From the NCBI GenBank assembly GCA_903929315.1, contig CAIYUC010000185.1, positions 1 to 46,423 on the forward strand: DNA of 46,423 nucleotides, given 5' to 3'. Position 1 is the stretch's first letter. Each line of letters starts with the position of its first letter. This document shows, in pieces, positions 1 through 36,039 of this stretch. A program made the translations under genes and the position numbers. Below the pieces are notes generated by a model, which saw nothing but the letters and a program-made list of their open reading frames with translations, ran no database searches and had not been told where the DNA came from. The DNA is from an uncultured Bacteroidales bacterium (GTDB lineage Bacteria > Bacteroidota > Bacteroidia > Bacteroidales > FEN-979).

Positions 1-22
1 TAATATTAAAAGGAGAAATCAT

Positions 23-1408
23 TTGAAGATCAGCAAAGTTTTATTGTTTGTGGTTTTTACTTTTGCCATATCTGCCGCAAAGCCACAACAGCTTGTATTC
101 AAATCGAACGGAAAGGTTAATTATCCTTTAACACCCAACGAAGAGACAATGCTCGATTCAATTCAGCATAAAACTTTTCTTTTCTTTTTAAATGAATATC
201 ATCCTGAAAAGGGAATTGTAAAAGACCGCACGGCAAGTTGGGCTCCTGCCAGTATTGCATCAACAGGTTTTGGAATTCCATCATTCGCAATCGGTGCTGA
301 AAGAAACTGGATGACACGTGAACAAGCGGCGGAGATAACGCTTAAAATTCTTAACTTCTTTATCCATTCAATTCAGAGCACTGCTCCGGATGTAACAGGA
401 TACAAAGGATTTTATTATCATTTCCTGAAAATGGATTCCGGTACACGTGAATGGAATTGTGAACTATCTTCCATAGATACAGGGATACTGATGATGGGTA
501 TCATCTTTGCCCGGAACTATTACAACCTGGACAATGAAGTTGAAAACCAAATCCGTTTACTTGCAGCAATATTACTTGACAGAATTGACTGGAATTTTAT
601 GTTATTGCCGGCTTCGAGTAAATATGCTTATACGATTTCCATGGCCTGGTCTCCCGAAAAAGGATTGCTGGATTATGGCTGGAGCGGATATAACGAGGCC
701 TTGTTCCTTTATGTTCTAGCTGCAGGCAGTGGAATGGAAAATGCTGAACAAAGTTACAAGTCGTGGTTAAAATCCTATAAATGGCAAACTCCATACAAAG
801 GATTTTCGCACGTAGCTTTTCCTCCTTTATTTGGTCATCAATTTTCACAGGCATTTATAGATTATCGCGGCATAGTTGATGAATACATGAAGGAAAAAGG
901 AATTGATTACTTTGAAAACTCACGCCGTGCAACGTATGTTCAACGACAATACGCAACAGATAATCCTAAAGGTTGGATTGGGTATGATTCGCTTTGCTGG
1001 GGTGTTACTGCAAGTGATGGACCTACAGAGAAGTATAATTTTGATCATAAAAAATTTTTGGGTTATGCAGGTAGAGGAACAAGCGGACCCGATTACAATT
1101 ATTTTGATGATGGAACAATTGCACCTTACGCATCGCTTTCATCAATCCCTTTTACTCCTGAAATAATTCTGCCAACCATTAAATCAATCAATGCCAGGTA
1201 TAGTAAAAAACTATGGGGTAAATACGGTTATTATGATGCTTTCAATCTTACAGCCAAATGGGTGGATGATGATTTTTTAGGAATTGATGAAGGTCCCATG
1301 CTGATGATGATAGAAAATTTCAGAACAGGCTTCGTTTGGAATTATGTAATGAAAGATCCGATAATCCAAAAAGGTTTAAACAAACTCGGCTACGAATATT
1401 TGAAATAG
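23..1408 (+). CDS. GH144-type endo-beta-1,2-glucanase (glycoamylase-like domain)
   Basis: Predicted secreted glycoside hydrolase of 461 residues. Residues 1 to about 21 form a signal peptide. The rest reads as the (alpha/alpha)6 glycoamylase-like domain (PF10091) found in GH144, whose characterised members cleave beta-1,2-glucan to sophorooligosaccharides or sophorose. Landmarks are ELSSIDTG (Asp152) and SGYNEAL (Glu225); their spacing fits my recollection of the acidic residues essential in the Chitinophaga enzyme. Length is normal for the family. The start is TTG, supported by a strong Shine-Dalgarno AAAAGGAG at 8-15 and by the signal peptide it gives. It is the first gene of a same-strand run with a GPH symporter, a GH35 and a GH94 phosphorylase, which favours beta-1,2-glucan as substrate. 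Endo versus exo action cannot be told by eye. Confidence 0.82.
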   Translation: MKISKVLLFVVFTFAISAAKPQQLVFKSNGKVNYPLTPNEETMLDSIQHKTFLFFLNEYHPEKGIVKDRTASWAPASIASTGFGIPSFAIGAERNWMTREQAAEITLKILNFFIHSIQSTAPDVTGYKGFYYHFLKMDSGTREWNCELSSIDTGILMMGIIFARNYYNLDNEVENQIRLLAAILLDRIDWNFMLLPASSKYAYTISMAWSPEKGLLDYGWSGYNEALFLYVLAAGSGMENAEQSYKSWLKSYKWQTPYKGFSHVAFPPLFGHQFSQAFIDYRGIVDEYMKEKGIDYFENSRRATYVQRQYATDNPKGWIGYDSLCWGVTASDGPTEKYNFDHKKFLGYAGRGTSGPDYNYFDDGTIAPYASLSSIPFTPEIILPTIKSINARYSKKLWGKYGYYDAFNLTAKWVDDDFLGIDEGPMLMMIENFRTGFVWNYVMKDPIIQKGLNKLGYEYLK

Positions 1409-1440
1409 AATTTAATTAGCCAAGGACATATCATAAATGT

Positions 1441-1550
1441 TTAACCACAAAGTACACCAAGGAATTCATAAAGGTGCACAAAGGTTTGTTATCTGTTAAT
1501 CAATTACTTTGTGCACCTTTGTGATGAACTTTGTGCGCCTTAGTGGTTAA
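1441..1550. repeat. Palindromic intergenic repeat, TTAACCAC...GTGGTTAA type (copy 1)
   Basis: An imperfect inverted repeat of about 43 bp per arm fills most of the gap between the first two genes. It opens with TTAACCACAAAG and closes with GTGGTTAA; both arms carry AAAGGTGCACAAAG or its complement. Related palindromes with the same outer ends lie at 36877-36963 and 41403-41490. As RNA it would fold into a long hairpin and could attenuate transcription inside the cluster, which is inference. Confidence 0.8.
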
Positions 1551-1603
1551 TAAAAGCTTTTTAGAAAACTTCAGTAGTTTAGCTTTAAAGCAATATCATC
1601 ATT

Positions 1604-4600
1604 ATGAAGCGTCTTTTTATAAAGAAAAATGTATTATCAGTCTTATTGGTTCTTACAACCACTATTATCAGTGCTCAAATCAAAACGCTTGATGAATTTG
1701 AAAACAAAAATGGCTGGACTTTCATCAAATCCGATGGCGTTAATCTTTACTTAACTAATGAAAAAGGATTAACAGGCAATGCGGTCCGTTTCGATTATGA
1801 TTTCACCAAAGGCACCGGTTATGGCGGAATACAGAAACTGTTTCCAATAGATCTCCCGGATAATTATGAATTTACATTTTATGTTAAAGCCGAATCTCCT
1901 GCCAATAATTTTGAAATAAAATTTATTGACAGCACGGGGAACAATGTTTGGTGGGTTAATAACCGCAACTATGATTTCCCAATTGAATGGGAAAAAATAC
2001 GTATAAAGAAAAGACATATCAATTTTGCCTGGGGACCAACAACTGATCAAAGCTTAAAGCGAATTGACAGAATTGAATTTACAATTTCATCGTTTGTTGG
2101 TGGTAAAGGTACAATCTGGATTGATGATCTGAAGTTTGAACCGCTCCAGCCCGAAACGCAATCTTATCCGATACCCTCAATCACAGCTTCGTCATTTATG
2201 AAAAATCATTCACCGGATTTTATTGTTGATAATTCAAATGAAACATACTGGCAAAGCATCGGAGTGAAAGATCAGGATATTATAATTGATTTTAAAACAC
2301 ACAGAGAATTCGGCGGCTTACAAATCAGTTGGCTTAAAAATAATTCCGCCAAAAGTTTTGATATTCTCGTATCGGACGACGGTAAGAATTGGGAGAAAGT
2401 TTATTCTGTTCAATCAAATCAGAGTGATGTTAGTTTTATCAGGCTACCCGAAGCAGAAGCAAAATATGTTAAGATTAATCTTACAAAAAGCAATTCTGAA
2501 AAAGGGTTCGGTATATGTGAAGTAAAATTTTTAGATATTAAAAGTTCTTTAACTCTGAACGATTTTTTGATTTACACAGCTAAAAATTCACCAGAAGGAA
2601 ATTATCCGAGGTACTTTTTAGAGCAAGCTTCCTATTGGACAATTACAGGTGTTAACAATGATGTTAAGGAAGCACTGATAAACGAAGATGGAATGGTTGA
2701 AGTTGATAAAGCCCGGTTTTCAATCGAGCCGATGATAAAAATCGGTGATTCGCTTTATAACTGGAGCAATGTCAAATCCATTCAATCATTGGGCTCTTCT
2801 GAAGATAAAAGTGAATTTAATTTTGTGCCGTCTGTCAACTGGCAATGTAACGATCTGAAATTTGTAACCGGAATAATGGCAAGCGGAGAGGCAAATAAAA
2901 ATTCCATGCTTGATATCTGCTATTCGTTTAACAATCTTTCAGACCGGCCGAAAAATTTTGAGTTTTATTTGTTGATTCGCCCGTACCAGGTTAATCCATA
3001 TTACCAGTTTCTGAATCTTACCGGCGGTGTTGGAAAAATAAATTCAATCAAAGAAGAAGATGGTAGATTTTTAGGTGTCGATGATAAAGTAGTACTGTCT
3101 CAAAAAAAATTTGATTCCTTCGGGGCAAGTATTTTTGATGAAGGAAATATTGTGGATCTTTTGCGTAAAGGAAATATTCCTAAAAATAATATCGCTATTG
3201 ATCAAAACGGGCTGGTAAATGGTGTAATAAAATATTCATTTCACTTAAATTCTGGTGAACATACCGGATTCTTTGTGGTAGTTCCGTTTTATGGTAAAAA
3301 ATCAATTGACGAAAAACCAAGCACTGAATATGTCATAGAAGAATCTAATCAAGCAACTGACTTCTGGAAAACGAAAGTTGGTCATATCAAATTTAACTTA
3401 CCTGAATCAGCAAACCGGATTGTAAATACTTACAAATCAAATCTCGCATACATATTAATCAACAGGGATAAGGCAGGAATTCAACCCGGCTCGCGTTCGT
3501 ATGAACGAAGCTGGATACGCGACGGTGCATTAACGTCATCTGCACTTCTGAAATCCGGTATCGTAAAAGAAGTTAAAGATTTCATTGATTGGTACGCAGG
3601 TTATCAATACGAAAACGGTAAAGTTCCCTGCGTTGTGGATATCAGGGGTCCCGATCCGGTTCCCGAAAACGACAGCCAAGGGGAAATGATTTATTTAATA
3701 CGCGAATATTTTAACTTCACAAAGGATACAACTTTTCTCAGGTCAAAAAATAAAAATGTATTAAAAGCTGTAAAATACATCGAATCGCTGATTGCGGAAA
3801 GATCAACGGACCATTTTAAATATGGAAATGACAGTGTACGTGCCTACTATGGCCTGGTTACGGAATCAATTAGTCACGAAGGTTATTCCGCAAAACCGAT
3901 GCACTCCTACTGGGATAATTTCTTTACCATGAAAGGTTTGAAAGATGCTGCGGAGATCCAAAAAATACTTGGTGAAAATGAATCTTATGAAAGAATAAAA
4001 AAAGTTCGCGATACATTTAAGGAAAATCTTTACAATTCATTGCAACTTGCAATGAAAACGAGAAAGATAGATTACATTCCCGGTTGCGTTGAGCTTGGTG
4101 ATTTTGATGCAACATCGACAACAATCGCTTTAACACCCTGCAACGAATTGAACAACCTACCCAAGCCGCAAGTATATAACACTTTTGAGAAATACTATGA
4201 ATTTTTCAAAAACCGGAGAGACGGGAAAATTGATTGGATTAATTACACACCGTATGAAAATCGTTTAATAGGTTCATTTATACTTTTAGATCAACCGGAA
4301 AGAGCGCACGAGTTAATAGCATTTTTCTTAAATGATCAACGCCCGCAGGGATGGAATCACTGGGCTGAAGTTGTTTGGAAAGATTACCGAATTCCGCGTT
4401 TTATAGGTGATATGCCCCACACTTGGGTTGGCAGCGATTTTATCAATGCAATCCGGGCTATGTTTGTTTATGAAAATGAGTATGATCAATCGCTTGTTTT
4501 AGCTTCTGCACTTTATCAGGATTGGATCGATTCGCCTGGAGGAATGTCTGTTGAAAATCTGCCAACATATTACGGCGAGATTTCATATTCAATAAAAAAA

Positions 4601-4789
4601 GATAAAGATAAATATGTCTTTTCAATTTTTGGTGATGTAAAACTTCCTTCCAATGGAATTAAAATCAAAAACTTTAACGGATCGAAACCTCCGGCCAAAG
4701 TGACCGTTAACGGAGAAGAGCGAAAAGATTTTACTGAAAAGGAAATATCAGTTAATGAGTTTCCTGCAGAAGTGGTGATTTACTATTAA
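1604..4789 (+). CDS. Large secreted multidomain protein: carbohydrate-binding-like and F5/8C domains plus (alpha/alpha)6-barrel, probable glycosidase
   Basis: A 1061-residue exported protein that I cannot assign to a named glycosidase family. Order of parts: signal peptide (1-25, ending in ISAQ); a beta-sandwich resembling carbohydrate-binding modules (about 28-185, ending GTIWIDDLKFEPL); an F5/8 type C (discoidin) domain (about 190-310); a second beta-rich region (about 320-600); and an alpha-helical barrel (about 605-985) with SYERSWIRDGAL, GKVPCVVDIRGPD and NDSQGEM, recalling GH15/GH63/debranching-type (alpha/alpha)6 enzymes. Acidic residues in WIRDGA and NDSQGE are candidate catalytic or substrate-binding positions. 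A small beta domain closes the protein. It lies between the GH144 gene and the sugar symporter on the same strand, so a role in extracellular attack on the same glucan is likely but inferred. Base composition matches the GH144 gene. Confidence 0.7.
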   Translation: MKRLFIKKNVLSVLLVLTTTIISAQIKTLDEFENKNGWTFIKSDGVNLYLTNEKGLTGNAVRFDYDFTKGTGYGGIQKLFPIDLPDNYEFTFYVKAESPANNFEIKFIDSTGNNVWWVNNRNYDFPIEWEKIRIKKRHINFAWGPTTDQSLKRIDRIEFTISSFVGGKGTIWIDDLKFEPLQPETQSYPIPSITASSFMKNHSPDFIVDNSNETYWQSIGVKDQDIIIDFKTHREFGGLQISWLKNNSAKSFDILVSDDGKNWEKVYSVQSNQSDVSFIRLPEAEAKYVKINLTKSNSEKGFGICEVKFLDIKSSLTLNDFLIYTAKNSPEGNYPRYFLEQASYWTITGVNNDVKEALINEDGMVEVDKARFSIEPMIKIGDSLYNWSNVKSIQSLGSSEDKSEFNFVPSVNWQCNDLKFVTGIMASGEANKNSMLDICYSFNNLSDRPKNFEFYLLIRPYQVNPYYQFLNLTGGVGKINSIKEEDGRFLGVDDKVVLSQKKFDSFGASIFDEGNIVDLLRKGNIPKNNIAIDQNGLVNGVIKYSFHLNSGEHTGFFVVVPFYGKKSIDEKPSTEYVIEESNQATDFWKTKVGHIKFNLPESANRIVNTYKSNLAYILINRDKAGIQPGSRSYERSWIRDGALTSSALLKSGIVKEVKDFIDWYAGYQYENGKVPCVVDIRGPDPVPENDSQGEMIYLIREYFNFTKDTTFLRSKNKNVLKAVKYIESLIAERSTDHFKYGNDSVRAYYGLVTESISHEGYSAKPMHSYWDNFFTMKGLKDAAEIQKILGENESYERIKKVRDTFKENLYNSLQLAMKTRKIDYIPGCVELGDFDATSTTIALTPCNELNNLPKPQVYNTFEKYYEFFKNRRDGKIDWINYTPYENRLIGSFILLDQPERAHELIAFFLNDQRPQGWNHWAEVVWKDYRIPRFIGDMPHTWVGSDFINAIRAMFVYENEYDQSLVLASALYQDWIDSPGGMSVENLPTYYGEISYSIKKDKDKYVFSIFGDVKLPSNGIKIKNFNGSKPPAKVTVNGEERKDFTEKEISVNEFPAEVVIYY

Positions 4790-4838
4790 TTAAAGTTGTT
4801 GCATAGTATTGAAATAGATTTTATTCAAAGGGATCTCT

Positions 4839-6623
4839 ATGAAGGAACAAGAAACTGGCACGGATCACCCTACAAAGCCTGAAGACCGGATTCGCTTATC
4901 ACAGTTAACCGCATATGGGGCCGGGGGTATTATTCCCATTGCCCTCTTCAACATAGCCGGAATACTCGTTGGGTTGATGGGCAATATAAGTTTGGGGCTA
5001 AGCGCCTTCTGGCTGGGAGCCATTTTGATTGTTCCCCGCTTGTGGGATGCTCTTTCTGATCCTGTTATTGGTCATCTTTCTGATAATACCCGGACCCGCT
5101 GGGGACGCCGGCGTCCATATCTGCTGATAGGCGGAATAGCCGTTGCTGTTTCTTTTGTCCTCATCTGGTGGATCCCTAAAGGGGAAATGGTACATAGCTG
5201 GTTCCCGACAGAAGCGGGTTACCATTGGTTTCAACTCTCCTATATTCTTTTTTCCCTCCTGATCTTCTTCACTGCGGTAAATATTTTCGAGATCCCTCAC
5301 GGTGCCCTCGGGATGGAGATGACTACGGATTACCATGAACGTACGCGTCTTTTCAGCGCCAAAAGTTTTGTCGGTAATCTTTTTGCAATGAGCACCCCCT
5401 GGCTTTTTGCTCTTGCAAGCCTGGAAATTTTTAAAGGCACAGGGGGTAATGAAGCCGATGGTATGCGATACGTTTCTTTGATGATTGCTGCCTTCCTGAT
5501 CCCGCTTTCTGTATGGTGGTTTACCGTATTACGTGAACCGGGATTTGTAAAAGCTGCAAAGCATAAAAAAACGCCCTTCTGGGAAGACATGAAACGCTCG
5601 GCCGGCAACCGGAATTTTATCATGCTGACGTTGACTATTTTCACCCTGGCCATGGGTTTTAATTTCGTTCAGTTACTCGGGTCATACATTCCTATTTTTT
5701 ACGTTTTCGGAGGTGATAAAGTTTTAGGTGCCAGGCTGCTCGGAATTAACGGCACCATCTGGGCAATCACCGGACTGCTTGCTGTTTTCCCTCTTAATTG
5801 GATAAGCCCGAAATTGGGTAAACGGAATACCCTCACGGTTGCCATTTTACTCATGTGCGTTGCGCAACTTTCCAAGATTGTCTGTTACAACCCATCATAT
5901 CCATACCTGATCATTATTCCAACTGTTTTGCTTTCTATGGGCATGTTGTTTTTCTTTACCCTGGGATCTTCCATGGTGGGCGATATCTGTGATGAGGACG
6001 AATTAAAGACGGGTTACCGAGCGGAGGGAAGCTTTTACTCAATATTCTGGTGGTTTATTAAAATGGGAACTGCACTTGCCAGCTTTGTGGCTGGTTCGCT
6101 GATCGTATTAACCATGTTTGATGAAGCTCAGGTTACAAAAGTCGATAGCTTACAAGGGAGTATCCGGGAGTTGCACAGCGAGGTGATATCCCGGAAAGAT
6201 GGCAAACCGGCAGGAAACCTTGAGGAGTTGATCATTAAGGCCAGGAAACGCTCAGATGAGCTAATGTCGCGCCTGGAACTTAAATCCCGGGAAGACAAAA
6301 ACAGCAAAGAACATTATAAAATGCTCATCCGGAATATCAAAGGGGTGAATTACCAGCTGGCAAAGATGAACACCACATCTTCTCTGGATTTCCTCGATAA
6401 AAGACTTTCAGCTATTGAAAGAGAAATCGTGTCTCTCAAAAGGCAGACACCTTACACGCTTTTAATGATGCGCGTCTTTGAGATAGGATTGCCGCTGCTG
6501 TTAAGCATTTTTTCAATTTTCTTTGTGCTCCGTTACTCATTGACTGAAAAACGAAGCCATGAAATTAAAGATCTTCTGAAGCAAAGAAACCTGGAACGCG
6601 AAAGGTATCGGGTCAGGATATGA
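4839..6623 (+). CDS. GPH-family (MelB-like) sugar:cation symporter with a coiled-coil insertion
   Basis: Inner-membrane MFS transporter of the glycoside-pentoside-hexuronide type, 594 residues. The family signature is clear in the first half: PRLWDALSDPVIGHLSDNT followed by RTRWGRRRPYLLIGG. About twelve hydrophobic helices are present. Unusual is a charged segment of roughly 110 residues (about 428-540, rich in K, E, R and L with heptad-like spacing) inserted before the last helix, plus a basic C-terminal tail. Typical GPH proteins have 450-500 residues, and the insertion explains the extra length. It starts 49 bp after the preceding gene and is followed 40 bp later by the GH35 gene. I infer that it imports beta-1,2-glucooligosaccharides; the substrate is not proven by sequence. 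Confidence 0.85.
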   Translation: MKEQETGTDHPTKPEDRIRLSQLTAYGAGGIIPIALFNIAGILVGLMGNISLGLSAFWLGAILIVPRLWDALSDPVIGHLSDNTRTRWGRRRPYLLIGGIAVAVSFVLIWWIPKGEMVHSWFPTEAGYHWFQLSYILFSLLIFFTAVNIFEIPHGALGMEMTTDYHERTRLFSAKSFVGNLFAMSTPWLFALASLEIFKGTGGNEADGMRYVSLMIAAFLIPLSVWWFTVLREPGFVKAAKHKKTPFWEDMKRSAGNRNFIMLTLTIFTLAMGFNFVQLLGSYIPIFYVFGGDKVLGARLLGINGTIWAITGLLAVFPLNWISPKLGKRNTLTVAILLMCVAQLSKIVCYNPSYPYLIIIPTVLLSMGMLFFFTLGSSMVGDICDEDELKTGYRAEGSFYSIFWWFIKMGTALASFVAGSLIVLTMFDEAQVTKVDSLQGSIRELHSEVISRKDGKPAGNLEELIIKARKRSDELMSRLELKSREDKNSKEHYKMLIRNIKGVNYQLAKMNTTSSLDFLDKRLSAIEREIVSLKRQTPYTLLMMRVFEIGLPLLLSIFSIFFVLRYSLTEKRSHEIKDLLKQRNLERERYRVRI

Positions 6624-6663
6624 ACAAAGAACCAGCGATCGTTTAAATTGAAAAACCCTTAAA

Positions 6664-9096
6664 ATGACATTTAGTATTAAAGGAGATAGTTTTTATCTCA
6701 ACGACAAAAAGGTATTTCTCAATTCGGGAGAGATCCATTATTTCAGAATTAAGCGCGATCTGTGGAACAAGCATCTGGAAGCAGCTAAAGAAGCCGGTTT
6801 AACTACCGTCAGTACTTACGTTCCATGGGCATGGCACGAATCAGAGGAATCTGTTTTTGATTTTGATGGCACATCATGTCCGGAACGCGATCTCAAAGGG
6901 TGGCTTCAGCGATGCCAGGCTCATGGATTGAATTGTATTGTAAAACCAGGACCATTTATTCTGGCAGAGTTTCGGGGAGCCGGATTGCCAGACTGGTTTA
7001 TGGATCGGTATCGTGACGAAGTTAAAATGCGTAACCGCGAGGGTGAAATATTTCCGAGTGACGGAGTCAGCCTGTTTAATCAGAGATATCTGGAAAAGGT
7101 AGCTCTGTGGTATGATCATATCATGCCCTTAATCAGTGAACGTGAAATTTCAGTCGGTGGTCCGGTTATTATGATGCAGATCTGCAATGAGATCGGCGTT
7201 TTCTCATGGTTGGCGAAACAAGGAGATTATGGTAACGCTGTGAAGGATCGTTTCATCTCATACTTATCAGATAAATTTTCCGGTATTGCTGAAGTGAATA
7301 GCTTGTGGGGAACAGATTATCAGGATTTTGCTCATATTGAACTTCCTCCTGACGGGAAGCTTCCTTATGCATCAAAGGGTGATCGCAGCCGTGATTTTGA
7401 ATGGCACTGTTTCTGGAGAACCTATTATGGTGACTATTTAAGATTGCTGACCACTATGGCCAGGGAAAGAGGTATAAGTGTTCCTTTATATCACAATATT
7501 CCCGGTTGGATCTTTGGACATGGCTATGAATTTCCGGTCAATATCACAATGTACGAAGATCTGTTTGGTGATAAAAGTGAGATCATATTCGGAATCGATC
7601 ATATACCGGAATTCTTATCATATCGCAATATGCAAGATGACAGGATCATCAATGATATAACTTTTGCAATGCAGGGGGATAAACCATTGTTTGCTGCTGA
7701 GTTCCAGAGCGGTTCCCGTGAATATCATGTGGTAACGAATCCACGTGAAATGGAACTCTTCTGCAAAGCAAGTGTTGCCAACGGTCTGGCCGGCTGGAAC
7801 TACTATATGTTCTCACAGGGACGCAACTTAAGCCGCAAGGGCTATTCCGGAGAAATATTTTACTGGTTCACCCCCCTCACAGCGGAAGGTGAGCGAACCA
7901 GTACCTTCCCATTGGTCAAACGAATGAGTAAAGTTGTAAAAACTTCCGGAAGCCTTATAGTTAATGCAAAACGTAAAGCCGAAGTATGCGTCCTTTTCTA
8001 TCCCCCATATTACGCCACAGAATTGGAAAGACCTGTTGAAGGGGGGTGTGAACTTCAATTCACGGCTTCTGCAATCCGCAGACCGGCATATTTCGACGGA
8101 TTGCTGAAAGTGTTTCAGGTACTTAATATCGATTATGATATGATCGATCTGAGTAAGGCATCTGCTGACACACTGAGTAAATACAAACAGGTATGGGCAT
8201 TCAGCACTGATGAGATGAATGCCAGGGATCAGCAAACTATTGTTGATTATACCAAAGCTGGTGGCAATTGTGTTCTTTTTCCATACCTGCCAGACCGTGA
8301 GACGTCACAGAGACCATGTACGATAATTCGCGATGCCCTGTCGGTATCACCATCCGGAATAGAAACCATTGATTCACCATTGATCGATATATATGACCTG
8401 AAGGATATCAAATGCGCCAATCCTCAGATCACCTATTCTGAAGAATCGCTCTCCGGTGCAGAAGTTATCGCCCGGACTATTAATGGCACTGCATGTGGAT
8501 TCGCAAAAGTTCTGGGAAGCGGATCCCTGATTCACCTGGGAACATGGATCGGATTCGACACGGAAGATCATAAACTGGTCTATGAAGCAATTCTGAAGAG
8601 ATCAGTTGCAAAGCTCAGGCAGGCATCCGCCACTAATGAAAATATTATTGTGAGAGAACGGTTCACTGGTGACAATTCTGCAGTCCTTTTCGTGGGGAAT
8701 TACTATAATGAAGAACAGAATAGCAAAGTTACCTATACTCATCCTGAAAGCGGTGAAGTTGTAAGTATTCCTTACTTTCAGGATGAGATGTTATGGCCGG
8801 CATTATACGGTGTATTAACTCCTGTTTGCCTGGAAGTTTCTGACGGATTAAAGATACTGTACAGCACCTCTGATATTCTGAGTGTTGAAGAGGTAAATGG
8901 TCAGCTTGCTATCACGATATATGGAGATCGTGATCTGGCGGGGGAGATCGTATTTGAAGGAGAGAATGTCAATAAAATTAAATTTGCTGCCATAGGTGGT
9001 AAAGCTGTAAAAATGCTCAGTGATAATAAACGAATTGCCTTTAATTACAGTCACAAACATAAGAGTGAAATGATTCTTCAAATTAAAATAAACTGA
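6664..9096 (+). CDS. GH35-family protein, possibly a cytosolic beta-1,2-glucosyltransglycosylase
   Basis: An 810-residue protein with a GH35 (beta-galactosidase) TIM barrel at the N-terminus. SGEIHYFRI and TYVPWAWHE lie in the first 60 residues, the acid/base Glu176 in MMQICNEIG, and the probable nucleophile Glu346 in LFAAEFQSGSRE. A Rossmann-like central domain and a beta-rich C-terminal part follow. There is no signal peptide, so it should be cytosolic, unlike many Bacteroidetes GH35 beta-galactosidases. A GH35 enzyme from Ignavibacterium album acts as a 1,2-beta-oligoglucan glucosyltransferase (established), and the placement here between a sugar symporter and an oligoglucan phosphorylase makes that activity a better guess than beta-galactosidase. 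The GH35 assignment is firm; the substrate is inferred from context. Confidence 0.82.
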   Translation: MTFSIKGDSFYLNDKKVFLNSGEIHYFRIKRDLWNKHLEAAKEAGLTTVSTYVPWAWHESEESVFDFDGTSCPERDLKGWLQRCQAHGLNCIVKPGPFILAEFRGAGLPDWFMDRYRDEVKMRNREGEIFPSDGVSLFNQRYLEKVALWYDHIMPLISEREISVGGPVIMMQICNEIGVFSWLAKQGDYGNAVKDRFISYLSDKFSGIAEVNSLWGTDYQDFAHIELPPDGKLPYASKGDRSRDFEWHCFWRTYYGDYLRLLTTMARERGISVPLYHNIPGWIFGHGYEFPVNITMYEDLFGDKSEIIFGIDHIPEFLSYRNMQDDRIINDITFAMQGDKPLFAAEFQSGSREYHVVTNPREMELFCKASVANGLAGWNYYMFSQGRNLSRKGYSGEIFYWFTPLTAEGERTSTFPLVKRMSKVVKTSGSLIVNAKRKAEVCVLFYPPYYATELERPVEGGCELQFTASAIRRPAYFDGLLKVFQVLNIDYDMIDLSKASADTLSKYKQVWAFSTDEMNARDQQTIVDYTKAGGNCVLFPYLPDRETSQRPCTIIRDALSVSPSGIETIDSPLIDIYDLKDIKCANPQITYSEESLSGAEVIARTINGTACGFAKVLGSGSLIHLGTWIGFDTEDHKLVYEAILKRSVAKLRQASATNENIIVRERFTGDNSAVLFVGNYYNEEQNSKVTYTHPESGEVVSIPYFQDEMLWPALYGVLTPVCLEVSDGLKILYSTSDILSVEEVNGQLAITIYGDRDLAGEIVFEGENVNKIKFAAIGGKAVKMLSDNKRIAFNYSHKHKSEMILQIKIN

Positions 9097-9120
9097 ACTT
9101 CACCCCCGGGACTAACTTAA

Positions 9121-9243
9121 AAGGATTCCGAAGGAATCCCATGTTTGTAGCAAAAATGGAACATCTCATCATCTGCGACCCCATACGGGGTCGAACAATG
9201 CAACCGTGTAATACCTATAAACATGCAATCCCTGCGGGATTGT
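9121..9243. repeat. Three-hairpin intergenic repeat unit
   Basis: Three perfect short hairpins occur within 120 bp: GGATTCC/GGAATCC with loop GAA at 9123-9139, GACCCC/GGGGTC with loop ATAC at 9177-9192, and CAATCCC/GGGATTG with loop TGC at 9226-9242. The even layout and similar stem lengths look like a repeat element rather than ordinary leader sequence. It separates the GH35 and GH94 genes, and the last hairpin ends 35 bp before the GH94 start codon, so it may influence expression. Confidence 0.75.
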
Positions 9244-9276
9244 GGATGTGGTTTTCGCAAAAAAATAATTTTAACA

Positions 9277-12200
9277 ATGAATATTAAAAATTCCCTGGGT
9301 CTTTCCTTCGATTTTCTGGAAAATGGTTCACTAAAGAGTATTGAAGCTGATCCGATCAGAATTAGCCTCAAAGCTGCCACACCTTTTTCAAAATCAGGAG
9401 CAAACCTGTATTTGAGGAAAAGAACAAAACCCTTTGAATACAAAGCTCTTTTAGGTCCGGAAAGTAATAGTCGTTTTAAAGTTAGAGAAGATGCGTTTAT
9501 TGCCAAAGGAAGTTGGGCTGATCTTGATTATGTATGTGTATTGCAACTTTCAAAAAAAAGTTTGAGTTGGCAGTGGCGTATTGATATTAACAACATATCT
9601 GACGATCTTGTCGAACTTGATTTAATTTATCTGCAGGATGCTGGGCTTAAGCCAGTAACTGATGGATTAATCAACGAATATTATGTAAGCCAATATCTTG
9701 AACGGCGTATTCTTGAAGATAAAAACTATGGTTCTGTCATTTGCTGTCGTCAAAATATGAAAGAATCCATTGGTAATCCATGGTTAATGATTTCATGTAA
9801 AAATACAGCGATGACAGCAAGTGTTGATGGCATGCAGTTTTATGGTAAAACATTCCGGGAAACAGGTATTGCAGAAGGTCTGCTTGCAGACAGGCTGGGG
9901 GGCGAATATTCCGGAGAATCGTCTGTTCTTGCCTTGCAGGAAAAACCATTTAAATTGGCCGCCAGGGATAATCATAAAAGTGTTTTTGTTGCAACCTATT
10001 TACCAGATCACTCTCAAGCAACGTCAGATGATGATTTGAATCAATTAGCTGACCTTATGCTTGAATTTGGTGATGAAGTTCCGTCTCAAAATTCTCATGA
10101 GTTGTTTACTCCGGATAAAAATATATTCAATACATCTGTTTTTTTACCGGTTGATGATTTGAGTGATAAAGAGCTTAAGCGGTTTTTTGATAAAGACAGG
10201 CGTCATTGTGAAGTAGAAAATGGTCAGTTGTTATCATTTTTCTGCCAACAAAACAACCATGTTATGCTGCGTGCGAAAGAAATTCTTGCTGACCGCCCGC
10301 ATGGACATATTATGCAAGCTAAAGCAGGATACGCTCCGGATGAAAATATTATATCAACTACCTCATATGCATATGGTGTTTTCAATTCGCATCTTACGCA
10401 GGGTAATACTAATTTTAATGTTCTGCTTTCAATTTGTTCCAGCCAGTTTGATCTCGCACCGGAAACAGGGCAACGAATCTTTGTTGAGATCAATGGCCGG
10501 CAATATTTACTTGGAGTTCCTTCTGCTTTTGAGATCGGTTTAAATCATTGCCGATGGATATATAAACAGGACGATTATTGCTTTCAGGTTCGCAGCTGGA
10601 CGTCTAAATCAGCCCCACTGGTTAATATGGACTTCAAAGTTGTTAGTGGTAAAGATGTAAACTTGTTAATTACTCATCATTTTGATGATAATAACGGCTG
10701 GAATATTATCCCTGGGAGTACAAGCGGTGAGTATGTGGCTAAACCAAAAGCGGATAGTATGATTGCAGGTAAATTTCCGCATGCACAATTCAGGATAATA
10801 GTTAATAGTGTTAATTCTGATTATAAGGCTTGCGGCGATGAAGTGCTGTATTGCAATAATAAAGGTCATGGGGGCTCTTTTTTTATTCTCAATGTGCGGG
10901 AAACATCTCATTTCTGTATGAGTTTTATAGGTGAGGTATGTTCTCCTGCCAAAACAGCTAAAATTGAAGATTCAGATGATCAGTGGTTTTCAGATTGTCA
11001 GGATGCCCAATTTGTTTGGCAGGACTTGTGTTTAAATCTGTCTCTGAAAGGTGACCAGGAAGACACCGCAGCTATTCAGGAAATCCTGCCATGGTATGGC
11101 ATGAATGCACTTACCCATTTTTTAACACCTTATGGTTTGGAACAATTTAGCGGAGCTGCATGGGGTACGCGCGATATAGCTCAGGGACCGTTTGACTTAC
11201 TATTGTGTATGGAAAGATATGATGAAGCTAAACAAGTTCTTCGCATCATTTTCTCAAATCAGAATACAGATGGTGGATGGCCACAATGGTGGATGTTCGA
11301 CAGCTACTCAAATATCCGGGCTGACAACTCTCATGGAGATGTTTTTTATTGGTGTATAATTGCTCTTAGTAACTATGTCCAAGTTACTGGCGATTTGAAA
11401 CTTCTCGACGAGATTTTACCTTACTATCATGAAAATGGTGTTACCAATGCTGAAATAACCCCACTTGGCGAACACGTTGACAGGCTTATTAATATGATAG
11501 TTAATTCATTTATTCCAGGCACTGCATTAGTTCCCTTTGGTGGCGGTGATTGGAATGATTCCCTTCAACCGTTAAGTAGGGAACTGGCGCAACGCATGAT
11601 TTCAAGTTGGACAGTTGAAATGAATTATCAGGCCTTTACTCAATATCTGGCGGTGTATGAACAGATCGGTAATACAGGAAAAGCTAAAGAATTGAAAGAA
11701 ATCTGTGAGCAGATTAAAGCAGATTTTAACAAATATCTGATAAGGGATGGAGTAGTTGCAGGGTACGGCCTGGTTGAAGAAGATCGCAGTATCAGTTTGC
11801 TCCTTCATCCAAGTGATAATAAAACCAATATCCAGTATAGTATATTGCCGATGAATCGCGGCATTATCAGTGAAATTTTTACAAAAGAACAGGCTTATCA
11901 CCACCAGGATCTTATTGAACAGCACCTGAAAGGTCCTGATGGCGCTCGTTTGATGAACCGTCCTCTCAAATACAAAGGTGGTATTCAAACACTTTTTCAG
12001 AGAGCCGAAAGCAGTACTTTCTTTGGTCGCGAGATTGGCCTTATGTACGTGCATGAACATATTCGTTATGCAGAATCACAAGCTCGTACAGGAAGGGCAG
12101 ATGCTTTTCTGAAAGCGCTTCGTCAGGCAAATCCGGTTGCGTACAGAGATATTGTCCCCTGTGGCGATATTCGCCAATCAAATTGTTATTACAGTAGTTC

Positions 12201-12621
12201 AGATGTCACATTTAAGAATCGTTATGAAGCGGATGAACGATACGAAGAAATAAAAACAGGAAAAATTACTCTTAAAGGAGGATGGCGGGTTTATTCCAGC
12301 GGGCCGGGTATTTATATTGGCCTGATTGTTTCACGATTGCTTGGTTTGCGTCCTGAATTTGGAAATATAATTGTCGATCCGGTAATTCCACATTCTTTGG
12401 ATGGTTTATCTGCTTCAATGGATTTCATAGGTCATTCGGTGACATTCATATATGCAGTAAAGGAAAGTTGTTTTGGTCCCAAAGTTATTTTTATTAACGG
12501 TAAACCTGTTAAGTTCACCTATGAACATAACAAATATCGCCAGGGTGGGGCCGTTATTCCAACTGATCAATTTTTAGCAAGGTTGAATCAGCATGATAAT
12601 ACTATTGAGATACAGCTGTAG
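9277..12621 (+). CDS. GH94 phosphorylase of the 1,2-beta-oligoglucan (sophorooligosaccharide) phosphorylase type
   Basis: Cytosolic phosphorylase predicted to convert beta-1,2-glucooligosaccharides plus phosphate into shortened oligomers and alpha-glucose 1-phosphate. From the ATG at 9277 the protein has 1114 residues, almost the length I recall for the Listeria 1,2-beta-oligoglucan phosphorylase. An upstream ATG at 9223 lies inside a hairpin repeat and gives an unlikely N-terminus, so I reject it. Large N-terminal beta domains precede an (alpha/alpha)6 barrel with GTRDIAQGPFDLLLCMERY, QNTDGGWPQWW and FGGGDWNDSLQPL; the GDWND motif (Asp758, Asp761) carries the family's general acid. There is no signal peptide. 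Together with GH144, the symporter and GH35 it completes a beta-1,2-glucan route. Other GH94 specificities are shorter (about 800 residues). Confidence 0.85.
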   Translation: MNIKNSLGLSFDFLENGSLKSIEADPIRISLKAATPFSKSGANLYLRKRTKPFEYKALLGPESNSRFKVREDAFIAKGSWADLDYVCVLQLSKKSLSWQWRIDINNISDDLVELDLIYLQDAGLKPVTDGLINEYYVSQYLERRILEDKNYGSVICCRQNMKESIGNPWLMISCKNTAMTASVDGMQFYGKTFRETGIAEGLLADRLGGEYSGESSVLALQEKPFKLAARDNHKSVFVATYLPDHSQATSDDDLNQLADLMLEFGDEVPSQNSHELFTPDKNIFNTSVFLPVDDLSDKELKRFFDKDRRHCEVENGQLLSFFCQQNNHVMLRAKEILADRPHGHIMQAKAGYAPDENIISTTSYAYGVFNSHLTQGNTNFNVLLSICSSQFDLAPETGQRIFVEINGRQYLLGVPSAFEIGLNHCRWIYKQDDYCFQVRSWTSKSAPLVNMDFKVVSGKDVNLLITHHFDDNNGWNIIPGSTSGEYVAKPKADSMIAGKFPHAQFRIIVNSVNSDYKACGDEVLYCNNKGHGGSFFILNVRETSHFCMSFIGEVCSPAKTAKIEDSDDQWFSDCQDAQFVWQDLCLNLSLKGDQEDTAAIQEILPWYGMNALTHFLTPYGLEQFSGAAWGTRDIAQGPFDLLLCMERYDEAKQVLRIIFSNQNTDGGWPQWWMFDSYSNIRADNSHGDVFYWCIIALSNYVQVTGDLKLLDEILPYYHENGVTNAEITPLGEHVDRLINMIVNSFIPGTALVPFGGGDWNDSLQPLSRELAQRMISSWTVEMNYQAFTQYLAVYEQIGNTGKAKELKEICEQIKADFNKYLIRDGVVAGYGLVEEDRSISLLLHPSDNKTNIQYSILPMNRGIISEIFTKEQAYHHQDLIEQHLKGPDGARLMNRPLKYKGGIQTLFQRAESSTFFGREIGLMYVHEHIRYAESQARTGRADAFLKALRQANPVAYRDIVPCGDIRQSNCYYSSSDVTFKNRYEADERYEEIKTGKITLKGGWRVYSSGPGIYIGLIVSRLLGLRPEFGNIIVDPVIPHSLDGLSASMDFIGHSVTFIYAVKESCFGPKVIFINGKPVKFTYEHNKYRQGGAVIPTDQFLARLNQHDNTIEIQL

Positions 12622-13133: not shown

Positions 13134-13141
13134 TAAGTTTG
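13134..13141 (+). promoter_or_regulatory. Bacteroidetes -7 promoter box TAAGTTTG
   Basis: TAAGTTTG matches the phylum consensus TAxxTTTG. It places the transcript start near 13148, 22 nt before the ATG at 13170. This rules out a start codon at 13139, which lies inside the box. Confidence 0.55.
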
Positions 13142-13169
13142 TACAACAAAATAAATCAAAAAAACCGCT

Positions 13170-14899
13170 ATGAATTCAGGTTTTACTTTGAGTTGGATCG
13201 ACTATACGATCATGATCGTTTATTTCGTTTTTGTTCTTGGGATTGGCTGGGCGCTAAAACGTTATATGAAAACGGCAAATGCCTTCCTGGAAGCCGGTCG
13301 TGCCATGCCGGCCTGGTAGCAGGCCTGGCCTTTATTTCCACGAATCTGGGCGCTCTTGAAGTGATGGGGATGACCGGATCCGGTGCAAAATATGGCATGC
13401 TGACCACCCATTTTTACTGGGTAGGAGCCATTCCGGCCATGGTTTTTCTGGCTTTGTTTATGATGCCATTTTACTATGGATCCAAAGCACGGTCCGTACC
13501 GGAATACCTGAAATTACGGTTCGATGAAAAAACCCGCGGCCTGAATGCCATTCTTTTCGCAGTGATGACGATCCTTGCCTCCGGGATATCCATGTACGCA
13601 CTGGCCATCCTGATGGAAAAAGTATTAGGGTGGAACTTCCATCTGAGTCTGGTCCTGTCCGCGGCTATCGTTCTTGGATATACTTACCTGGGGGGACTTT
13701 CCTCCGCGATATACAACGAAGTATTACAGTTCTTCATCATTGTTATCGGATTATTGCCCATTGTTATTCTTAGTCTCCAGGATTTGGGTGGCTGGTCAGG
13801 GTTGAAAGAACAACTGGCGCCGATTGTGACCGCTAAAGGTTTTGCTCCGGATACATGGACCACCACCTGGAAATATACCGGATCGGCCACGGCCAATCCC
13901 CTGGGTGTTGAATGGTATGGGATTTTTGCCGGCCTTGGTTTTGTTCTTTCCTTTGGATACTGGTGTACTAACTTTCTGATCGTACAACGGGCCATGTCGG
14001 CCGAATCCCAAACAGCTGCACGGAATACCCCGTTAATCGGGGCGCTTCCGAAGATGTTCATCCCTTTTCTTATTATCGTTCCGGGAATTGCCGCACTGGT
14101 CCTGCTCAATAAAGAAGGATCCGGATTTTCATTACCTGAAATTTCACCAGGCCATTATAACTATGACTATACCATTATCGCCTTGTTAAAACAATACCTC
14201 CCGGCAGGGGTGCTTGGTCTGGGGATCACCGCACTATTGGCCTCCTTTATGTCGGGAATGGCGGGCAACGTTTCGGCCTTCAATACGGTATGGACCTACG
14301 ACATCTATCAAAGCTATATCCGTCCGGTTACCGGTAATAAAGAAGCTGACGAAAAGCATTATCTGACCGTTGGCCGGATGGCAACGATCTTCGGCGTGGC
14401 AGTGAGTATAGCCGCTGCTTACTTAGCCAGTCTATTCGGGAATATCATGGACTTCCTCCAAACTATTTTCTCGATGGTCAACGCTCCCTTGTTTGCCGTG
14501 ATCTTTTTGGGCATGTTTTGGAAACGGACAACGGGCCATGCAGCATTTTCCGGACTTCTGGCCGGATTCTTTATCGCATTGCTGCATCATGGTCTCACCG
14601 CTCCTATGGGTGCTGCGACCCTTGTTAAAGGAGGCTGGATATGTAATTTGCACACCTACCCGGTGGAGATGGCACAGAATTTCTGGACTGCCATCTTTGC
14701 CTTTTCAACCAGTGCACTGGTGACTGTAGTACTCTCCATGATAACAAAACAGCAAAAAACCACGGAAGAGCTCACGGGATTGGTCTATTCGCTGACCCCG
14801 AGAAGAAATGAAACCGGGGTACCCTGGTACTCGCGATCCATAACCCTTGCCATCGTGGTACTGGTAATTGCAACGGTATTGACAATTTTATTCTGGTAA
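13170..14899 (+). CDS. Sodium:solute symporter (SSS family), interrupted by a one-base frameshift near codon 49
   Basis: Inner-membrane Na+-coupled solute (probably sugar) transporter with about 13-14 helices. Reading from the ATG at 13170 gives a typical SSS N-terminus (SWIDYTIMIVYFVFVLGIGW, then AFLEAGRAMPAW) that stops at TAG 13317-13319. One frame over, the protein continues at once with VAGLAFISTNLGALEVMGM, the expected next segment, and runs open to 14899. Restoring one G in the TGGTA at 13314-13318 joins the halves into about 577 residues. Either the gene is a recent pseudogene or the sequence has a G-run error; the intact remainder favours error or a very recent mutation. It follows the phosphorylase gene at 548 bp and may import sugar for the same pathway. 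Its GC content is higher than that of the GH94 gene. Confidence 0.8.
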
Positions 14900-18982: not shown

Positions 18983-19615
18983 ATGTCTGTCAGCTATCTC
19001 GAATTCAGGGAATCCTTGTATCCGCAGGGACTTTTTTCCATAAGCCAGGTGCGATTGTACTTCCCGGATTTCAATAGAGATAACCTCCTTTCATGGCAAA
19101 AGAAGGGTTATATCATCCGGTTAAGACGGGGATGGTATTGCTTCCGGGAATTTATGAAGGTGCCAGAGTACAATTTCCTAGTCGCTAACAACATCTATGC
19201 TCCCTCCTATGTCAGTCACCAGGAAGCATTGCTGTTTTATGGTCTGATTCCGGAGCATATCGTTGATTCGACTTCCATAACCACCAAAAAGACCGCTGTT
19301 TTTCCGGTAAAGGGAAAGGTTTTCAAATATTATTCAGTACACCCCAGGTTTTTTTTCGGTTATGAACTGAAAGAGATGACAGCAAATGGTTTCAAAAGAA
19401 ATTTTATGATTGCGGACAGGGAAAAAGCAATACTGGATCTTCTTTACATTTTTGACTTCTATAAGACTGAACAGGACATTGCAGATATCCGGTTTAATGA
19501 AGAAACCCTAGAGAACGACATAAACTGGAACCGCATGGAAGAATATCTCAAGAGGTTCGATATAAAGATCCTTGAAAAGAAAGTCCGGCTGATACAGAAA
19601 ATTCACCAATTATGA
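18983..19615 (+). CDS. AbiEi-family antitoxin / transcriptional autorepressor
   Basis: Protein of 210 residues from the ATG at 18983; a TTG at 18956 would lie inside the -7 promoter box and is rejected. An N-terminal winged-helix-like part (FSISQVRLYFPDFNRDNLLSW, then GYIIRLRRGWYCF) matches the AbiEi pattern, followed by YVSHQEALLFYGLIPE and a C-terminal region with DREKAILDLLYI, as in type IV antitoxins of the AbiE family. These proteins repress their own operon by binding inverted repeats, and such a repeat overlaps this promoter. The stop overlaps the start of the AbiEii gene by 4 bp (ATGA). Role: neutralises or counteracts the partner nucleotidyltransferase. Confidence 0.88.
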   Translation: MSVSYLEFRESLYPQGLFSISQVRLYFPDFNRDNLLSWQKKGYIIRLRRGWYCFREFMKVPEYNFLVANNIYAPSYVSHQEALLFYGLIPEHIVDSTSITTKKTAVFPVKGKVFKYYSVHPRFFFGYELKEMTANGFKRNFMIADREKAILDLLYIFDFYKTEQDIADIRFNEETLENDINWNRMEEYLKRFDIKILEKKVRLIQKIHQL

Positions 19616-20418
19616 TAGCCCTGCACGAGATTGTCAGGCAATATCCGAAAGATCTTCAAAAGCCTGAATTCTATGATCCGATGGTCAAGGAGTACATTCA
19701 CCATCACATGCTGAAAGTCCTCTTTAATGACAAAAATGCAAACCGTATCTCATTTCTGGGTGGAACTGCACTCAGATATTTCTATGATCTGAAGCGATTC
19801 TCGGAAGATCTTGACCTGGATTGTTTTGACCTTTCAAGACCGCAATTTCTGGCAATGACCGATCATCTCCTGAAAGAAATGCAAGCCATGGGTTTTGATG
19901 TCGTAATTGAGGACAAGAAAAGATATGAGGAGTTGAAGGCATTTCGACGGGTATTTGTATTCCCCGAATTGAAATACATTATGGGAATGAGCCAGCAGAA
20001 AGAGGCGAAATTCTTTATCAAAATTGAAGCTGAACCACAGCATTTTGATTATCAGCCTGAGGTAAAAAGGATCAGTGGTTTTGGTGTGACTGCTCCGGTA
20101 AGAACTATGCCATTGGGGATACTGTTTTCCTCAAAGATTGCGGCCGCGTTAAGTCGTATGAAAGACCGTGATTTTTATGATGTGGTATACCTGATCAATT
20201 TTGCATCTCCTGATTTTGCTTTTCTTTCAATAAAATGTGGGATCGAGACACCTGGACAACTAAAAGAAGCGCTGCTTAAGGCTTCAGACGAACGAAAACT
20301 TAAAACCCGGTGTCTCTACGATTGTGAGCATATGCTGTTCAACAAGCAAGACATTATGATGATCCGGTCCTTTTCGGATTATATTGAGCATTTTGATTTT
20401 AGCAGGTTCAGTGCGTGA
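19612..20418 (+). CDS. AbiEii-family nucleotidyltransferase toxin
   Basis: A 268-residue protein of the AbiEii/DUF1814 family (PF08843). The nucleotidyltransferase core is plain: FLGGTALRYFYDLKRFSEDLDLD at residues 48-70 gives the GG[ST] loop and the metal-binding acidic pair. A further conserved stretch is LGILFSSKIAAALSRMKDRDFYDVVYL, which contains the KxxA...RxKDRDxxD element. AbiE toxins transfer nucleotides to targets such as tRNA in related systems and can give phage defence (established for the family). Translationally coupled to the AbiEi gene. Length is normal and all visible motifs are intact, so the pair looks functional. Confidence 0.9.
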   Translation: MIALHEIVRQYPKDLQKPEFYDPMVKEYIHHHMLKVLFNDKNANRISFLGGTALRYFYDLKRFSEDLDLDCFDLSRPQFLAMTDHLLKEMQAMGFDVVIEDKKRYEELKAFRRVFVFPELKYIMGMSQQKEAKFFIKIEAEPQHFDYQPEVKRISGFGVTAPVRTMPLGILFSSKIAAALSRMKDRDFYDVVYLINFASPDFAFLSIKCGIETPGQLKEALLKASDERKLKTRCLYDCEHMLFNKQDIMMIRSFSDYIEHFDFSRFSA

Positions 20419-21840: not shown

Positions 21841-22020
21841 ACCGCCACCTCTGATCTCCTTGTGCCGGTTAAGAATGACCACCGTATTAGTCTGATTATT
21901 ATTTATTTAAGATAGTCTACTTCCTTCGTTCAAGTGTGGTCAATCTTACAGTTCTGTCCATGAATTTCTGCAACGGGCCTCTTGCTGCGTGAAGATCAGT
22001 TTTCTTCCTATTTTTGTGAT

Positions 22021-36013: not shown

Positions 36014-36031
36014 GCCGTGGAGATATCTTTT

Positions 36032-36039
36032 CAAATTTA
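36032..36039 (-). promoter_or_regulatory. Bacteroidetes -7 promoter box TAAATTTG (minus strand)
   Basis: TAAATTTG on the minus strand, with an inferred transcript start near 36025, 12 nt before the ATG at 36013. It gives the repeat protein its own promoter behind the ABC ATPase gene. Confidence 0.55.

Follow-up and report, generated by a model that had tools for sequence, protein, structure and literature searches.

Many bacteria make beta-1,2-glucans, in linear or cyclic form, and these glucans are important in symbiosis and infection. The enzymes known to recycle them are few, many having been discovered by reading the gene clusters that encode them. Loci of the SusCD type that act on beta-1,2-glucan occur in Bacteroides. 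A gene cluster around a beta-1,2-glucanase (SGL) of Bacteroides thetaiotaomicron is mentioned in the study of IaSGT, the GH35 beta-1,2-glucosyltransferase of Ignavibacterium album (PMC8861115). Here we analyze a 46,423-nucleotide stretch of DNA, referred to as the window, from an uncultured Bacteroidales bacterium (contig CAIYUC010000185.1). As an earlier note on this DNA had claimed, five consecutive open reading frames (ORFs) stand on its + strand between positions 23 and 12621, in the order GH144a, a protein that we call P2, a GPH-family cation symporter, a GH35 protein and a GH94 protein of the 1,2-beta-oligoglucan phosphorylase (SOGP) type. We conclude that the locus is very probably a beta-1,2-glucan utilization pathway of the SusCD type. 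It is well supported as a known kind of beta-1,2-glucan locus, in a variant that has a GPH symporter, an SOGP, an IaSGT-type GH35 and one unclassified enzyme, P2.

The assignment to beta-1,2-glucan is strongly supported because each of the three key enzymes has a characterized beta-1,2-glucan enzyme as its nearest solved relative, by a wide margin, and because nearly all of the published residues that could be mapped are kept. Family placement was made from score gaps and residues, active-site residues were mapped by hand from pairwise alignments, and signal peptides were judged by eye. GH144a (23-1408, + strand, 461 residues) is predicted to be an XcSGL-type endo-beta-1,2-glucanase that is exported. 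It carries an N-terminal signal peptide and matches the Pfam model PF10091 with an E value of 4e-72, and its nearest solved relative is 8xul (XCC2207, that is, XcSGL; 2e-104), followed by 4gl3 (2e-63). XCC2207 is active on beta-1,2-glucan and was inactive on the other glucans tested (PMC12102758). The SGL-clan residues are present as E225, F270 and Y348, equivalent to E239, F286 and Y367 of XcSGL; the crystal chain carries Q at E239, and its numbers are the native ones minus 14, consistently for all three residues. D152, opposite which 4gl3 has a Glu and XcSGL an Asp, probably stands at the position of the candidate base E142 of CpSGL, a column that was inferred via the row of 4gl3.

The GH94 protein (9223-12621, + strand, 1132 residues) matches the SOGP_N, SOGP_2nd and SOGP_4th domains above their cut-offs (2e-50, 5e-52 and 7e-11). 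Its start is probably the ATG near 9277, because the alignment with LpSOGP begins at residue 21. The nearest solved relative is LpSOGP itself (5h3z, 3e-177) and the next is a cellobiose phosphorylase at 1e-8, which rules out a cellobiose or chitobiose phosphorylase. All 12 of the 12 mapped residues of subsites -1, +1 and +2 and of catalysis are identical to those of LpSOGP, namely N151 (N138 in LpSOGP), Y154 (Y141), Q641 (Q621), R650 (R630), D651 (D631), W777 (W758), D779 (the catalytic acid, D760), R927 (R907), R936 (R916), E937 (E917), Y942 (Y922) and H944 (H924). A646 (A626) is kept as well, and G623 is replaced by S643; the mapping did not extend to Y1004, S1005 and S1006 of LpSOGP.

The GH35 protein (6664-9096, + strand, 810 residues) is by its sequence a probable cytosolic beta-1,2-glucosyltransferase of the IaSGT type, and no signal peptide was seen on it by eye. 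Its nearest solved relatives are the beta-1,2-glucosyltransferase entries 7vkw/7vkx (7e-148) and the next is 5gsl (1e-61), a gap that rules out an ordinary beta-galactosidase. The catalytic pair and the -1 site of IaSGT (Y52, E102, N175, E176, N275, E343 and Y378) are conserved at 7 of 7 aligned positions, E176 being the acid/base and N275, the nucleophile E343 and Y378 standing at N278, E346 and Y381 here. L100, V179, F180 and L183 are also kept, as is R349 (R352), a residue not kept in many IaSGT homologues (PMC8861115), and the subsite +2 residue Q106 is replaced by A. The calls of GH144, GPH, GH35 and GH94 in the earlier note thus agree with the Pfam and NCBIfam models and with the nearest solved structures; judged by score gaps, the GH94 protein does not group with cellobiose or chitobiose phosphorylases, nor does GH144a fall outside the beta-1,2-glucanases. 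Beta-1,2-glucan as the substrate, and exported depolymerization, symport and cytosolic phosphorolysis as the route, are likewise well supported.

What does not stand is the claim that the locus lacks SusC and SusD and uses the symporter in their place, which is an artefact of a contig edge. The window is contig C185 from base 1, and the GH144a start codon follows after only 22 bases. Positions 1-98 (+ strand) overlap contig C47, from the same genome, on which the locus continues upstream: when C47 is reverse-complemented, its final 98 bases agree with the opening 98 bases of the window at 92 positions, and C47 terminates inside the start of GH144a, whose start codon at position 23 is TTG in the window and ATG in C47. 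On the reverse strand of C47 (L109 among the loci below; 12,784 bases) are SusC, SusD, two accessory proteins (one LamG-like, the other SusE/F-like and bearing a CBM20-type domain and a type IX sorting tail), a second GH144 protein and a GH3 protein. This second GH144 protein is the sole other PF10091 match of the genome and is nearest to 4gl3 (2e-164) and then to 5gzk/5gzh, named endo-beta-1,2-glucanase (5e-150). The best solved match of the GH3 protein is JMB19063 (3u48, 2e-258), followed among others by the periplasmic beta-glucosidase 5xxl (2e-232), which we take to be the beta-1,2-glucan-linked enzyme of B. thetaiotaomicron, and by Lin1840 of Listeria innocua (1e-177). The imperfect overlap counts against the join, and the mismatches may be strain variation. 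In a genome of the same genus (G001, contig C22) the order from SusC to SOGP is contiguous on a single contig, so that the locus belongs with the SusCD polysaccharide utilization loci through the susC/susD pair on C47 and its unbroken counterpart in G001. On that contig, apparently the same record as our locus L063, additional DNA separates P2 from GPH and GH35 from SOGP. At these places lie a foreign-looking ORF of 219 residues (L063:13269-13928) and ORFs that by eye resemble a restriction-modification pair (L063:19910-23182), respectively.

The symporter (4839-6623, + strand, 594 residues) is a probable inner-membrane importer of beta-1,2-glucooligosaccharides. It matches MFS_2 with an E value of 6e-66 and the gph model TIGR00792 with 6e-48, the latter below the curated score of that model. 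A variable stretch at residues ~440-560, charged and coiled-coil-like by eye, precedes its last helices; in the matches that BLAST split, and with the diverged L103 excluded, identity between loci is ~44-69% there and ~67-87% elsewhere. GPH symporters are inner-membrane carriers, and most likely this one serves the inner membrane and SusC/SusD the outer membrane, because relatives hold both in one locus. The symporter therefore does not stand in for SusC/SusD here.

The arrangement is conserved. One scan yielded 76 loci with P2, in 60 of which, the close loci, P2 is at least 59% identical to that of the window, the other 16 falling below 59%. Of the 33 close loci that reach 8 kb or more downstream of P2, 32 carry GPH there, all 33 GH35 and 31 SOGP, and the gene order is for this reason far beyond chance. 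Upstream, 39 close loci have at least 9 kb, and among them SusC is present in 29, SusD in 32, either of the two in 32 and a second GH144 in 32. In 48 of the 49 close loci that extend 1.3 kb or more upstream, the first gene match before P2, within 700 bp, is GH144a; the single exception, L040, has the other type of GH144 in that place. In two loci GH144a and P2 are fused into single open frames (L094:8585-13132, 1516 codons; L051:8609-13057, 1483 codons), and in L063 a GH3 protein is fused to GH144a in one ORF of 1192 residues (6405-9983).

Neither SusC nor SusD was found in seven of the 39 loci, the Ignavibacterial L078 and six others (L034, L042, L049, L050, L053 and L094). In these six the block begins beside ORFs that look unrelated by eye, with a separate GH3 upstream on the opposite strand in L053. 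The six genomes were searched for SusC alone, and in each of them a SusC homologue and another PF10091 gene lie no more than 7 kb apart on one contig, which in 4 of the 6 also carries the block from GH144a to SOGP. One of these SusC proteins is 73% identical to that of C47 and the other five are 37-39% identical, and because this identity is so low the link to SusC in the five genomes rests on the adjoining GH144. The locus thus seems to be built of two blocks, one of SusCD with the second GH144 and one of GH144a, P2, GPH, GH35 and SOGP.

P2 (1604-4789, + strand, 1061 residues) is exported, distantly GH15-like and without an assigned family in the libraries searched, and it is the new part of the locus. 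It comprises a jelly-roll, CBM11-like region at ~27-180 (a weak match, 1.5e-4), an F5/8 type C (CBM32-like) domain at 192-305 that is present in 36 of 36 P2 members, a beta-sandwich at ~340-560, a helical barrel at ~575-955 and a C-terminal beta domain. The (alpha/alpha)6 fold proposed in the earlier note is borne out by an AlphaFold2 model built from 36 sequences, which shows the beta-sandwich and an (alpha/alpha)6 barrel with a mean predicted local distance difference test score (pLDDT) of 88.1 and a predicted template modelling score of 0.84. The best structural match is dextran dextrinase (9ju0; Z 27.9, root-mean-square deviation 3.9 over 557 residues), followed by a GH65 alpha-1,2-glucosidase (26.8), GH116 (26.4), glucoamylase (26.1), glucodextranase (25.7) and SOGP (24.6). 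Because GH15, GH65, GH116, SOGP and others score nearly equal Z, the fold leaves the family undecided.

Sequence profiles lean toward GH15. Compared with 15 GH15 proteins from the class, P2 reached a probability of 94.8 (E 4.9e-8, for one comparison), against 11.2 (3e-3) for SOGP, or 26 (7e-4) for the barrel alone, and 2.7 for GH35; for scale, SOGP compared with GH15 reached 77.4. A relationship to GH144 was considered and rejected: the initial probability of 100 came from fused GH144-P2 ORFs within the GH144 set, and with only ORFs under 760 residues (56 sequences) it falls to 0.9. The NCBIfam oligosaccharide amylase model, presumably of the GH15 type, matches 36 of 36 P2 members (1e-6 for the window protein, 2e-12 at best), and an archaeal trehalase model matches 19 of 36. 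The P2 of the window has no catalytic Pfam match and no match to PF00723 (GH15) up to an E value of 1; the GH15 model matches 7 of the 36 members up to that value (best 0.0027), and weak or sub-threshold matches among the members are to GH78 in 17, to GH15 in these 7, to GDE_C in 6 and to GH95 in 6. Eighteen acidic residues, D640, E759 and E922 among them, do not vary across the 36 members. GH15 enzymes have a WxRD motif, a glutamate that acts as acid and, toward the C-terminal end of the barrel, another that acts as base; W637-R639-D640 and E922 of P2 align with their GH15 counterparts, and E759 does not do so cleanly. We propose E759 as the acid and E922 as the base of a putative catalytic pair.

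To our knowledge, all known GH15 enzymes cleave alpha-glucosides. Beta-1,2-glucans cyclized by an alpha-1,6 link exist (PMC11228985), and this, together with the GH15-like sequence of P2 and its tie to beta-1,2-glucanases, leads to the idea, which we favor with somewhat less than even confidence, that P2 is an alpha-acting enzyme, for example on the alpha-1,6 link of such rings. Several points weigh against it. P2 scores 27.6 bits with the oligosaccharide amylase model, whose curated score is 820.7; in the Foldseek comparison GH15, GH65, GH116, GH78, GH125, GH94, GH95 and others fall within a few Z units of one another; and the model of P2 is least certain (pLDDT under 50) at the loop 759-763 and, beside E922, at 916-918 and 936-939. 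It is conceivable, if on balance unlikely, that P2 itself cleaves beta-1,2 bonds, for example as an exo-enzyme on sophorooligosaccharides, which would leave the rest of the pathway unchanged. The fold of P2 also ties with the beta-acting families GH94 and GH116, P2 accompanies GH144 across lineages and its N-terminal modules resemble those of glucanases, but the profiles favor GH15 over SOGP and GH144 alike, and the known GH15 enzymes act on alpha-glucosides.

The distribution of P2 is narrow. Full or nearly full matches occur in 9 of 41 genomes of the relatives of the window, its own included, a tally that leaves out weak partial matches of 17-32% identity and with them would be 22. Across 295 genomes sampled from the class P2 occurs in one, that of the window, and PF10091 in 43, though in some of the 43 the match is an ORF of ~2,900 codons that resembles a cyclic glucan synthase more than a GH144. 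In Bacteroidota, in Ignavibacteria and in one genome each labelled Eisenbacteria, Phycisphaerales, Opitutaceae and Cyanobacteria, P2 is found in the neighborhood of GH144. Of the 16 loci whose P2 falls short of 59% identity, which include genomes labelled Ignavibacteria and the same four other names, 11 have a GH144 match; none was found in L087, L096, L099, L105 and L107 within the available DNA of each, and PF10091 was present in 6 of the 6 low-identity genomes searched throughout. A stretch of IaSGT searched against 197 genomes of the class of genome G041 matched two of them, at 74 and 66% identity, I. album itself being absent from the matches. In the first (L145) the GH35 protein is 74% identical to IaSGT over 208 residues, with the C-terminus of a P2 (42% identical, at the contig start) directly upstream and then a GH144 and, by eye, an apparent ABC transporter; the 31 kb inspected in the second (L143/L144) showed no P2. 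No P2-like protein is named in the covered parts of the literature on beta-1,2-glucan and GH144, the supplements of which might still depict one. As the one unclassified enzyme of the locus, P2 is worth testing.

In our reading the window holds the inner half of the locus. Gene content and order, families, active-site residues and the upstream SusCD are results of the computation, and the activities, the localizations, the target of P2 and the GH35-SOGP cycle are inferred. The pathway that we propose would begin with outer-membrane uptake of beta-1,2-glucan or its fragments by the SusC/SusD of C47. The CpSGL-like GH144 lipoprotein and the GH3 enzyme of C47 would act outside the cell or in the periplasm, where GH144a would cut the chain to sophorooligosaccharides. 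P2 would take off what the GH144 and GH3 enzymes cannot, at best guess an alpha-glucosidic bond or cap, for instance the one alpha-1,6 link in each alpha-1,6-cyclized glucan, and the symporter would then carry the oligosaccharides across the inner membrane. In the cytosol SOGP would convert chains of at least three glucoses to glucose 1-phosphate and sophorose, and the GH35 transferase could turn two Sop2 into Sop3 and glucose, returning sophorose to SOGP much as MalQ works with maltodextrin phosphorylase. We suggest this GH35-SOGP cycle as a tentative possibility because IaSGT disproportionates Sop2-5 (PMC8861115) and SOGP acts on chains of three or more units (PMC5309861), and the authors of the I. 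album study had earlier suggested that sophorose feeds IaSGT. The kinetics of IaSGT tell against such a cycle unless the GH35 clade here differs, since its Michaelis constant for Sop2 is 120 mM and it prefers aryl- and alkyl-glucosides as acceptors (PMC8861115), and the cycle may be less important if GH3 trims the oligosaccharides in the periplasm. A bolder combination, that P2 founds a glycosidase family dedicated to beta-1,2-glucan, cleaving the alpha-1,6 closure or an alpha-glucosyl cap in the periplasm, and that GH35 and SOGP form a beta-1,2 analogue of MalQ-MalP, is a rather doubtful prospect as a whole. If true, P2 would let the whole ring be consumed, and sophorose would yield glucose and glucose 1-phosphate with no need for a beta-glucosidase in the cytosol.

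Two other readings of the locus fare worse. The locus could in principle target another beta-1,2-linked glycan, as does a SusCD locus of Bacteroides xylanisolvens that pairs GH144 with a GH35 beta-1,2-galactosidase (PMC11739564), but this is quite improbable: the GH35 of that organism is phylogenetically far from SGT (PMC11739564), whereas the GH35 protein here is nearest to IaSGT with its glucose-site residues kept, and SOGP keeps its LpSOGP contacts. A self-standing system free of SusCD, with the symporter in its place, is hardly credible, since the six blocks beside unrelated-looking ORFs are outweighed by the SusC homologues near PF10091 genes in all six genomes and by the inner-membrane nature of GPH carriers, and for this genome it is ruled out by C47, unless C47 does not adjoin the window.

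The window has further features besides this probable SusCD-type beta-1,2-glucan locus. Beyond SOGP, a Na+/solute symporter (13139-14899, + strand) has by eye its natural N-terminus in another frame, from 13170 to ~13317, and goes on in the frame of the ORF, which indicates that either the gene itself or its assembly carries a frameshift; among the 76 loci it was seen in L077 alone and is hence not counted in the locus, and most long loci extend only ~2 kb beyond SOGP. Farther on are an AbiEii-type nucleotidyltransferase (19612-20418; PF08843), a candidate type IV toxin, with an ORF of 219 residues without a Pfam match immediately upstream, a 675-residue ORF (21982-24009) that matches 287-685 of the 743 positions of the GH106 alpha-L-rhamnosidase model and is possibly incomplete, and a 1591-residue protein with TPR-type matches (31259-36034, - strand).

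Compared with known proteins, GH144a shares the clan residues of XcSGL, its nearest solved relative, which comes from a different source organism, Xanthomonas campestris. The GH94 protein matches LpSOGP over its full length, including the extra N-terminal domain, and differs among the mapped residues in the serine at G623 alone. GH15 includes glucoamylase, glucodextranase, trehalase and dextran dextrinase, and P2 resembles this family in its fold (best 9ju0) and distant profile similarity but differs in lacking a Pfam GH15 match, in its two N-terminal binding modules and in strict motifs of its own. At the level of the locus, the cluster of I. album around IaSGT (IALB_1185) likewise has GH144 enzymes, a GH35 glucosyltransferase and a GH94 SOGP homologue, together with a proposed TonB-dependent uptake at the outer membrane (PMC8861115). 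It uses an ABC transporter where the locus described here has the GPH symporter, and its GH94 protein (IALB_1177) is described as homologous to the C-terminal domain of a cyclic glucan synthase, whereas the window has a full enzyme of the LpSOGP type. The GH35 proteins of the I. album-type clade and those of the window clade are ~37-39% identical, and in the I. album-type locus L145 the C-terminus of P2 adjoins GH35, as a further likeness to the window. With the SusCD-type beta-1,2-glucan loci of Bacteroides our locus shares the SusC, SusD, GH144 and GH3 of C47, to which it adds the cytosolic SOGP-GH35 pair, the GPH symporter and P2.

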